Assembly: GCA_028279275.1 (NCBI GenBank)
Contig: JANQOB010000018.1
Location: 186,001 to 250,000, forward strand
Direction: 5' to 3'
From: Gammaproteobacteria bacterium
GTDB lineage: Bacteria; Pseudomonadota; Gammaproteobacteria; UBA4575
Length of the DNA stretch: 64,000 bases
A program made the position numbers and the translations under genes. Position 1 is the first letter of the stretch; every line of letters begins with the position of its first letter. Positions 44,595 through 47,031 of this stretch are shown one piece after another. The notes below the pieces were generated by a model, which was given only the letters and a program-made list of their open reading frames with translations, ran no database searches and was not told the origin of the DNA.

Positions 44595-44614
44595 TGAGCA
44601 CAAGGAGGTGCTAA

Positions 44615-44647
44615 TATGATTTCCATCAGGGATGATGCAACTAATTA
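44615..44647 (+). CDS. Possible 10-codon leader or micro-ORF
   Basis: ATG at 44615 has the perfect site AAGGAGG (44602-44608) seven bases upstream and codes MISIRDDATN. Its end overlaps the start (44632) of a second frame of 39 codons ending at 44751, which has no site of its own. It may be a leader peptide, a coupled small-protein pair, or the relic of a lost gene. No homology can be judged at this length. Confidence 0.25.
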
Positions 44648-44792
44648 AAGTTAGAAAAACTGAAAATGATCGCTATCGGTCAATTGCAGACATAAACAAG
44701 ACTCTACTCAGACCCTTTTACCCATTTATTCTCGTTAAGCAACAATTTTGAGGGTTATATAAATCTTTGTCGTCCAATCGAAAAGACAGTTC

Positions 44793-46139
44793 TTAATCTA
44801 AACAACTCTCTAGTGCGCGTCGGATATAACCCTCATCGAGATCTCTTCCGATGAAGACCATACGACTGACAGGCGTTTCATTGCCCCACGGTTTACCAGC
44901 TTGACTCCCAACTATCATGTGAACACCCTGAAATACAATTTGATGGCTTTCGCCTTTTATTGCCACCACTCCTTTCATGCGGTAGATATCGACACCCTTG
45001 ACTGTCAGAAAAACATCAATCCACGCATTTATTTTGGCAGGATCGAACCATCCTGATAACTCAACTGCAACGGACGACACCCCATCGTCATGTTCATGTT
45101 CGGCATTAAAGTAATGTTCCGCGACGGGTGTGTATTGGGTATCTTCTTCGTTCAAGAGTTCCAGCTCAAACTCTTCCGGAGTGTGCTGGGAAAATACTGC
45201 TAGTTGTTTAGGTGACTCCACAACAAATTTAAACTCATACATGTGTTGGCCCTCAAGTAGAAGTCGGTAACACTGTCCATATTCTGTAAGTGCTTCACCG
45301 TGAGCCAACGATACTACTTTCTTTGAAAATTCCACGAACACCTCTTCCGCTAATCTTAGTAGTTCCGCTTCGGAGGCTTCATTCACATCAGACAAAAGAA
45401 ACTTCATGTCTGGGTCAGGTCCGTTTGATAATTGAAAACGATATTGACCTGCTGACAACTGCCAAACGCCGCCCCATTCGAAAGGGTATTCTGGCTCTAA
45501 GAAATTCGGCTTCATTTCCACAGCACGTTCAAGATTAAATCCGCCGACATCTAACAGCTCATTGATGGGAGCATCGGCCATCGTGGTAGAGTAAAAACCC
45601 GCCATTTGATTAATATCTTGTAGTCGCCTCTTTAACGAGAGAAGCTTGTTTTCAGTAGTCAGATCAACCTTATTTAAGATGATGCGATCAGCAAACGCGA
45701 TCTGCGCTAGTACCTCTTCCGTATTATCGTCTAGGTGAGAGTTAACATGTTTGGCGTCTACGAGCGTGATAATGCCATCAATTTCATATTGTTGAGAAAT
45801 ATCCTTATCTACAAAAAATGTTTGTGCTACGGGCCCAGGGTCAGCCATTCCCGTAGTTTCTAAGATTACTCGATCGAATTTGTCTTTTCGCTCGACCAAA
45901 TCACCCAAGATACGAATGAGATCACCCCTAACAGTGCAACAAATGCAGCCGTTATTCATTTCGAACACTTCTTCATCGGCATTAATAACCAAATCTTGGT
46001 CAATACCAATTTCACCAAATTCGTTTTCGATCACCGCAATCCGAAGACCGTGTTCTTCTGACAAAATACGATTGAGTAGCGTGGTTTTACCACTTCCTAG
46101 AAAACCCGTGAGTACGGTAACCGGGATTTTATCGGGCAT
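44793..46139 (-). CDS. COG0523 (CobW/YjiA-type) metal-handling GTPase
   Basis: The 448-aa GTPase has Walker A GFLGSGKT (12-19), the metal-binding CxCC (Cys65, Cys67, Cys68 in [13 protein letters not shown]), Walker B-like ETTGMADP, and NKVD for guanine. A His/Asp/Glu-rich stretch ([11 protein letters not shown]) precedes a C-terminal CobW-C domain that ends [13 protein letters not shown]. It is longer than E. coli YjiA. COG0523 proteins deliver or store metals; the Zur-type box 147 bp upstream argues for a zinc-starvation role (ZigA/ZagA-like). A cobalamin role is unlikely: no cob genes nearby. Confidence 0.9.
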
Positions 46140-46451
46140 TCATCTGTCCTCTTTATGACGATTTACAGCGTTTAACAAACATCAGTAATTGGAAATTGGG
46201 GCGATGACTAACGGTCTGTGCTTTACATAAAACGCTGCTGAGTTGCTGTTTATTCATAAAAGTGCACCACAATTTCATTTTATTGAATGTTATAACATAA
46301 CATTATTCTAAACCCCAATCAGGGAAGATGAAAAGTATTTATGCTCTAGGTGATAGGTCTAAGTCGGAAACATCCGCTGAGAGATTGGATAATAAAAATT
46401 ATTATGAATATTTTTATGGCTAAAATAGAAGTTTAGCAACTCATATTTTTC
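46140..46451. other. 312-bp region upstream of the COG0523 gene
   Basis: No established gene. It contains a Zur-like palindrome (46286-46304) and, on the + strand, a 31-codon frame (46328-46423; MKSIYALGDRSKSE...) whose AGGGA lies only two bases from its ATG, so translation is doubtful. The rest is AT-rich. Confidence 0.6.
46286..46304. promoter_or_regulatory. Zur-type zinc-regulator box
   Basis: AATGTTATA-A-CATAACATT fits the palindromic 19-mer AATGTTATA-N-TATAACATT described for gammaproteobacterial Zur boxes, with one substitution (C for T at the start of the right arm). It sits in the intergenic region ahead of a COG0523 GTPase, a gene class often repressed by Zur. From established knowledge, Zur represses such genes when zinc is sufficient. 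Confidence 0.7.
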
Positions 46452-46859
46452 CTAACTAATCCAACCTTTGCGTTCAGCGAGTTTTGAATACCAAATTAAA
46501 AACACTGTAAGAATTATCTGAATCAGACCACCAATCAATGCTTCAACCGGAAAGTCAGCTATGCCGAAGATCGGGATTTGCGCGGCAACTGCTCCAATGA
46601 GCGACGCGATAAATACATAAAATGCTGCAGATTTCCTAAACAGAAGTAGGAGAACAGCTAATGCGCCACCGAAAACAGCGACTGAGAACGCTGCAGTTGC
46701 CCATGCAGGCCTGGCTTCTACTATTGCACGATATTGTTCAGGCAATGTTGACACACTATCTGCACTCATTTGCGAAAAGAAGTTGATGCAACCCATAATA
46801 TTAAAAATAAGTGCGAGAATACCAATTAACCAAAAACTCCAATGCACTTTATTGTTCAT
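46452..46859 (-). CDS. Small four-helix membrane protein, unknown
   Basis: The 135-aa product has four clear hydrophobic segments (about 8-28, 53-75, 78-100 and 106-127) and short charged ends (LAERKGWIS). A conserved-looking polar loop (SADSVSTLPEQYRAIVEARPAW) follows helix 1. I know similar unnamed proteins in aquatic Gammaproteobacteria but no function. Not clearly in an operon: 172 bp separate it from the L,D-transpeptidase gene and 312 bp from the COG0523 gene. Confidence 0.7.
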   Translation of the reverse strand: MNNKVHWSFWLIGILALIFNIMGCINFFSQMSADSVSTLPEQYRAIVEARPAWATAAFSVAVFGGALAVLLLLFRKSAAFYVFIASLIGAVAAQIPIFGIADFPVEALIGGLIQIILTVFLIWYSKLAERKGWIS

Positions 46860-47031
46860 TGCATATCCTTTTTAATTATTTTAAATGTCTGCCTAAGATC
46901 GAAACCGACATCTCAAAAACTGATTTGAATTCCCCAACCTGCTTACTAGTTTAGTTTTGCTAACTTTAATCTGTACGCGTCATCCAAGACGCGACTCTTA
47001 TTCGTACATCCCTGTACTCACATCTAAGTGT

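Follow-up and report, generated by a model that had tools for sequence, protein, structure and literature searches.

Zur regulons of gammaproteobacteria include zur itself together with genes such as znuD, DUF1826 and zrgA. COG0523 proteins, which are GTPases of the G3E, YjiA type, belong to the same physiological context: the sections of Haas et al. 2009 used here (PMC2770081) name COG0523 and FolE2 among the Zur targets and count CobW in the COG0523 family as well. Prokaryotic subfamily 5 of COG0523, as presented in these sections, occurs in gene clusters that contain znuABC and WD40 genes; several of its members sit behind a Zur site (PMC2770081). ZigA/YciC (COG0523 subfamily 1) is likewise a Zur-controlled GTPase. 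E. coli YjiA (1nij, 4ixm), finally, is the closest solved homologue, by sequence as well as by Foldseek, of the protein described here. The combination of a Zur box with a COG0523 GTPase is thus already known. Here we describe a further member; the Zur regulon to which it belongs is well supported, and no ZnuA was detected in the genome. New are a 2.4-kb segment with 21-nt inverted repeats, the lack of a detected ZnuA, and Zur boxes that have iota-type carbonic anhydrase frames next to them.

The stretch of DNA analysed, hereafter the window, comprises 64,000 nt; its features are listed in the table. The box AATGTTATAACATAACATT carries one mismatch to AATGTTATANTATAACATT, which we take to be the gammaproteobacterial Zur consensus, a form that the box set found here supports. 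The preliminary description had counted 18 of 19 matching positions, and this count holds when the free position is included; of the fixed positions, 17 of 18 agree. The palindrome is imperfect, with 8-nt arms that pair and three central bases (AAC) that do not. A Markov model of first order, fitted to the window, predicts 0.0008 matches with at most one mismatch per 64 kb and 0.033 in the whole 2.70-Mb genome. The identical 19-mer recurs in the same genome at G000:C8:105096, upstream of cbtB. At two mismatches or fewer the genome holds 10 and 11 strand matches, while the reversed pattern, used as control, gives 0 and 1. At three or fewer there are 15 and 17 versus 17 and 18, and the excess is gone, so only near-perfect sites were counted. 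We therefore regard the box at 46286-46304 as genuine and far above chance.

Table. Features of the GTPase locus in the window (strand: +, -, or. where none applies)
Feature	Position	Strand	Remarks
COG0523 (G3E, YjiA-type) GTPase gene, 448 aa	44793..46139	-	PF02492 205.6 bits, PF07683 77.1 bits
GTPase domain, residues 6-182	45594..46124	-	Pfam PF02492 (cobW)
GCICC motif, residues 64-68	45936..45950	-	C65, C67, C68 invariant in 34/34 rows
Inserted beta-sandwich domain, about residues 213-352, about 130 residues	45084..45503	-	modelled alone: mean pLDDT 93.3
HxHD motif (HEHD), residues 348-351	45087..45098	-	H348, H350 invariant in 34/34 rows; D351 at least 90%
CobW C-terminal domain, residues 354-447	44799..45080	-	Pfam PF07683
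41-codon leader frame	46153..46278	-	judged not a gene; best E 0.50
Zur box AATGTTATAACATAACATT (predicted)	46286..46304	.	1 mismatch to AATGTTATANTATAACATT
Weak sigma-70-like promoter TTTTCA-18-TAGAAT (putative)	46305..46334	-	9/12 positions; -10 abuts box
Divergent 31-codon frame	46328..46423	+	ATG 24 nt from box; judged not a gene
135-aa gene	46452..46859	-	ends upstream of box, not box-controlled; without Pfam match (E up to 1)
Segment of 2,437 nt (GTPase gene, box, 135-aa gene)	44595..47031	.	absent at this place in 6/6 family relatives examined
Inverted repeat, left arm, 21 nt	44644..44664	+	49 nt inside segment; 19/21 paired with right arm
Inverted repeat, right arm, 21 nt	46950..46970	-	61 nt inside segment

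Sites with at most two mismatches occupy nine places in the genome, eight intergenic and one coding. The coding match, a two-mismatch site at C8:103035 within frame L033:10908-11834, was taken as chance. The intergenic places are found at zur, zigA, a znuD-like gene, folE2, cbtB, a merC-like gene, a Cys-rich/TonB/BtuFC-like operon and the window GTPase gene. We also tried the purine-pyrimidine pattern of E. coli Zur, which agrees at 8 of 10 positions at all eight intergenic boxes and at 7 in the coding match, and rejected it as poorly discriminating. The reading put forward in the preliminary description depended on the presence of a zur gene, and a Zur-type gene of the Fur family was indeed found at L035:7972-8433 (-), preceded by a two-mismatch box of its own and followed by merC-like, zrgA and ABC-transporter genes. 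It reaches 126.6 bits with the NCBIfam Zur model PRK11639, below the curated cut-off of 167, and among solved structures it comes closest to 7dh7, which bears the name Fur family, and to E. coli Zur (4mtd, 98.8 bits).

In E. coli Zur a D49/R52 pair couples two dimers, according to the part of PMC4219657 used here. The corresponding positions, with numbering counted along the alignment, are A/S in the Zur-type gene of this genome and in those of G001, G002, G003, G005 and G007. The acidic-basic pair is thus lacking here and in five relatives, yet overlapping double boxes occur.

At the zigA place, zigA (691 bits, cut-off 600) is accompanied by DUF1826, with an iota-type carbonic anhydrase frame running divergently. 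folE2 (312 bits, cut-off 215) has an overlapping double site. At L033:13097-13490 the box precedes cbtB (70.9 bits, cut-off 64.4), with a TonB siderophore-type receptor further downstream. The znuD-like receptor gene faces an rluB-like gene across its box. The merC-like place has a second iota-type frame on its other side; the second merC-like gene gave no NCBIfam match and was named from similarity to the MerC frames of relatives. At L033:4798-10903 a perfect 24-nt palindrome made of two overlapping boxes precedes a 72-aa Cys-rich frame, which is followed by DUF6925 and then by TonB-B12-receptor-like, BtuF-like, BtuC-like and ATPase genes. Uptake of cobalamin or of a metal complex may thus be under Zur control there; both the B12-type names and the name ZnuD (400 bits against a cut-off of 950) go with scores under the curated cut-offs. 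Seven PF02492 matches occur in the genome: the two COG0523 proteins, both boxed, one that we read as a UreG-like frame adjoining a UreF-like frame, and four weak ones (21-27 bits).

The set shares with gammaproteobacterial Zur regulons targets of the zur, znuD, zigA, folE2, DUF1826 and zrgA types. It differs in that boxes also adjoin cbtB and an iota-type carbonic anhydrase frame, and in that no ZnuA was detected. ZnuA (PF01297) was not found in this genome, which is 94.7% complete, so its absence is probable and not proven; a search of 15 other genomes found it in 7, among them two of the same genus (G001 and G003). The expectation of further boxes near znuABC was accordingly borne out for other zinc genes and not for znuABC. 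That boxes would also lie at ribosomal-protein paralogues was not confirmed: none was recognised by eye among frames of at least 70 aa, nor among Cys-containing ATG frames of 30-99 codons in the 900 nt around the seven other intergenic boxes. Among the titles listed in a search of the open literature, none dealt with cbtB as part of a zinc regulon.

These genes also bear on whether another Fur-family regulator, Fur proper, owns the box, with the gene answering to iron. Fur-family boxes are generally AT-rich inverted repeats. With the profile of the Fur family, two Fur-like genes of this genome (159.5 and 156.4 bits) far outscore the Zur candidate (52.6 bits), and one box precedes cbtB with the siderophore-type TonB receptor behind it. 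However, the box also precedes the Zur-type gene, zigA, folE2 and the znuD-like and zrgA-type genes, and in relatives zur, znuD and zigA, which makes ownership by Fur very unlikely.

With at most two mismatches, the box was present in 11 of the 19 genomes searched and missing in eight, two of which belong to the same family. Of 19 box places in relatives, 16 were read: six lie at zur (one of these assignments, G011, resting on 34% identity), three at znuD and two at zigA, that is 11 of 16, and five had no reference match. At three mismatches or fewer, strand matches numbered 5/5 versus 0/0 for the control in G028, 5/5 versus 3/3 in G364 and 8/8 versus 3/3 in G136; G201, with 0/0 versus 1/1, does not carry the box. 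It stands upstream of zigA, among other places, in G364 and G136, and in G028 upstream of a zigA operon, with a separate box upstream of a zur-like gene. The single mismatch in the window, the 0.0008 expected per 64 kb, the zur gene and the copies at zinc genes support the assignment, already made in the preliminary description, of the predicted box to Zur operators of the gammaproteobacterial type.

Judged by its sequence, the window protein is a COG0523 GTPase, with a G3E domain, a GCxCC motif and a CobW_C domain. Conservation was read from an alignment of 34 rows (35 non-redundant rows, L123 left out). The CxCC motif noted in the preliminary description was confirmed as GCICC with its three cysteines invariant; the His-rich loop dissolved into H342, H348 and H350, the latter two being part of a conserved HxHD motif. 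Solved homologues found by sequence were exclusively E. coli YjiA entries (1nij, 4ixm, 4ixn). YjiA has the GTPase and CobW_C domains in common with the window protein, which adds a beta-sandwich of about 130 residues between the two. For this insert neither Pfam (E up to 1) nor Foldseek (E <0.001) gave a match, and a profile searched against PDB sequences reached E 0.1 at best. Its best structural matches, supernatant protein factor (Z 5.9) and the p24 GOLD domain (Z 5.2), were too weak for naming. The full-length model has a pLDDT of 78.3 and a pTM of 0.59; residues 40-69 and 346-354 fall below a pLDDT of 50, and the GCICC and HxHD regions are unreliable in it. Compared as a whole, the GTPase model matches Shulin 724-1105 (6zyx) with Z 15.7 (rmsd 3.7, 286 residues aligned); entries of UreG and HypB follow with Z 13.4-13.8.

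The other COG0523 gene of the genome is ZigA (NCBIfam), from which the window protein differs by scoring far under the cut-off of the ZigA model NF038288 (168.2 bits versus 600). In a tree of 28 rows, which covers part of the homologues and separates the window protein only from ZigA and from the YjiA-type proteins of the genus, it pairs with L043 from an uncultured Pseudomonadales (support 100/97), followed by L044 (98/88).

Homologues were collected with the peptides DEEVFEM and PEYPFEW, a choice that biases the scan toward insert-bearing members, and the best 80 of 573 relatives were kept. Together with L038 and L123-L125 they make up 84 loci, of which 38 are similar picocyanobacteria. Among these 84 loci (best 80 of 573 plus four), WD40 frames occur in 76 and ZnuA in 41; a tally of ZnuC may take in other ABC ATPases. 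A WD40-repeat gene thus accompanies the insert-bearing GTPase in most of the loci kept and is absent beside the window gene. In the same selection, a ZnuA, ZnuB, ZIP or Fur-family gene lies in the flank of 32 of the 38 picocyanobacterial loci and of 19 of the 46 others; within the flank examined, 27 of these 46 have none of them. Insert-bearing zinc GTPases, common in picocyanobacteria (38 of the 84 loci, best 80 of 573 plus four), are rare in this class (5 of 369 genomes).

Individual loci illustrate this company. The order is znuC-znuB-znuA-GTPase in L043 (73% identity) and [box]-zigA-DUF1826-zrgA-znuC-znuB-znuA-GTPase-gammaCA-like-[box]-zur-like in G028 (64%). Zur-like boxes lie near the homologues L038 and L049, in L049 as two overlapping boxes with 3 and 4 mismatches upstream of ZIP-GTPase-WD40. 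Immediately before distant homologues, many of which sit in operons, the box is not conserved. The 300 nt before the homologues were scanned in 48 loci, L123 and L125 on the wrong side; among the 46 usable of the 84 loci, only L038 and L043 had candidates, each with five mismatches, and that of L043 falls within znuA. Over the whole homologue loci, a match with at most four mismatches was present in only 6 of 84 (best 80 of 573 plus four).

With subfamily 5 as described in the part of Haas et al. 2009 used here (PMC2770081), the window protein has in common GCICC, homologues that neighbour znuABC and WD40 genes, and a kinship in which several members have Zur sites; the window gene differs in standing alone behind its own box, with neither WD40 nor znuABC neighbours. 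We infer that the GTPase is of the subfamily 5 kind, a placement by the context of its homologues rather than by the tree of Haas et al. Since these sections give the same company and Zur sites for subfamily 5, the kind itself is already known.

The GTPase might also serve another metal, for example cobalt, under Zur control. The regulon does include the CbtB gene and the TonB/BtuF/BtuC-like genes, and CobW belongs to the COG0523 family, but the window protein stays well under the cut-off of the CobW model TIGR02475 (182.7 versus 332.1 bits) and its homologues accompany znuABC, ZIP and zur. We consider service to another metal unlikely.

Very probably, then, the box is a Zur operator, the GTPase gene is repressed by Zn-loaded Zur, and its YjiA-type, subfamily 5 product hands zinc on when the metal is scarce. 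The zinc-starvation metallochaperone proposed in the preliminary description thus remains the main reading, with comparative support from zur, the boxed zinc genes and the homologues found with znuABC, zur or ZIP. At adequate zinc, Zn-loaded Zur would occupy the box, which overlaps the putative minus-strand promoter, and keep the GTPase gene off. When zinc drops, Zur would leave the box and the gene would be expressed. The GTPase most likely binds zinc at GCICC and, by turning over GTP, transfers it to chosen zinc proteins. This reading draws on features of sequence throughout, namely the box, a Zur-type gene that is itself boxed, the further boxes of the genome, the conservation at zinc genes of relatives and the zinc context of the homologues; Zur binding to the box, repression, induction on zinc starvation, zinc as the metal and a client protein are what they would imply.

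The distance from the box to the start codon of the GTPase gene is 146 nt, compared to 26 nt at zur and 66 nt at zigA. TTTTCA-18-TAGAAT is the presumed promoter of the GTPase gene. The region contains two promoter-like sites versus a mean of 1.6 in shuffled sequences, so the promoter prediction is not significant by itself. An RNA element in the leader was rejected: positions 46000-46600 gave no Rfam match at gathering thresholds, and the folding z-score of the leader is +0.79. The 146-nt gap and the inserted segment would both be explained if the box were a relic or a chance match that no longer controls the GTPase gene. The long leader, the weak promoter prediction and a segment peculiar to this genome at this place, as compared with the six relatives examined, fit such a history. 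Yet no more than 0.033 such boxes are expected genome-wide, the other COG0523 gene is boxed too, and the GTPase gene is the sole recognisable gene reading away from the box; a relic is most unlikely.

The preliminary description had further suggested that the 31-codon frame encodes a divergent small protein driven by the same box. The frame exists, and its ATG lies at the distance given. As a gene it was rejected: tblastn found no homologue among the loci compared (best E 0.25), the region is missing at this place in 6 of 6 family relatives examined, and in 36% of simulated sequences one strand has a frame of 31 codons or more that begins within 60 nt. Moreover, the only nearby plus-strand promoter-like site falls within the frame itself. 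It is probably a chance reading frame, and that the box also drives a small protein is hardly credible. The 41-codon leader frame was likewise rejected as a gene, with no homologue by tblastn among the loci compared.

The GTPase gene, the box and the 135-aa gene form a discrete segment. In G001, G002, G003, G005, G007 and G010 the genes that flank it in the window (W47032 and W43866) lie 0-19 nt apart. Pairing of 19/21 as in the inverted repeats was reached in 0 of 60 random pairs, and real AT-rich pairs, at most 60 in number, did not reach it either. The exact inverted-repeat pattern was found in no other of the 205 loci compared, save three that cover this same place. In G001 a 63% homologue of the 135-aa gene sits instead between homologues of two other genes of the window, W30208_31116 and W31826_32581. 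Among 54 relatives besides the genome itself, G028 alone has a full-length GTPase homologue at E 1e-60, and four others match the GTPase domain only; in the class sample a homologue at E 1e-100 is present in 5 of 369 genomes, this one included. The G+C content of the GTPase gene is 43.8% versus 40.1% for the window, so composition provides no foreign mark. The 21-nt repeats may mark where a small mobile unit ends on either side. Box and GTPase gene may have come jointly as a 2.4-kb unit bounded by the inverted repeats and joined a resident Zur network.

Three iota-type carbonic anhydrase frames are present in this genome. Facing zigA, the 198-aa frame (L031:3245-3841, -) has its start 108 nt from the zigA box. 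Of the other two, the 150-aa frame (L036:8997-9449, +) lies 375 nt from the merC box, which is too far for it to carry weight, and the third (C6:741-1163) has no box. The first two are homologues of the solved iota carbonic anhydrase 7c5x/7c5v (E 5.7e-93 and 3.1e-29); with NF047901, named metal-independent carbonic anhydrase, they score 118.9 and 64.9 bits, under the cut-off of 350. The iota class is described as metal-independent, in line with this family name.

In total, 17 iota places were found in 13 of 369 genomes. Three of the 17 have a box with at most three mismatches nearby, one of them in G364 and the others in this genome; the remaining 14 have none, L177 showing a four-mismatch match on the wrong side. 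In G364, which belongs to another family, the iota-type frame (L198:7315-7779, +) starts 25 nt behind a three-mismatch box and faces a Zur-type gene that has a second, four-mismatch box. Across G364, five matches per strand with at most three mismatches compare with three in the control, so the single three-mismatch site is weak by itself. It is nevertheless credited because all five G364 places with at most three mismatches adjoin genes of the zinc-regulon type (COG0523, zigA, merC-like, ABC/FtsX and the iota/Zur-type pair).

Searches of the open literature returned neither a link between Zur and iota carbonic anhydrases nor one between these enzymes and zinc starvation. Whether Zur switches carbonic anhydrases, turning the iota class on at zinc starvation in place of the zinc-dependent enzymes, appears to us evenly balanced. 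If it does, induction of an iota-type carbonic anhydrase via Zur would be a zinc-sparing step. As a separate observation, a short Fur-like frame (L022:378-755 / G000:C6:483-689) adjoins the third iota-type frame (L181:729-1181).
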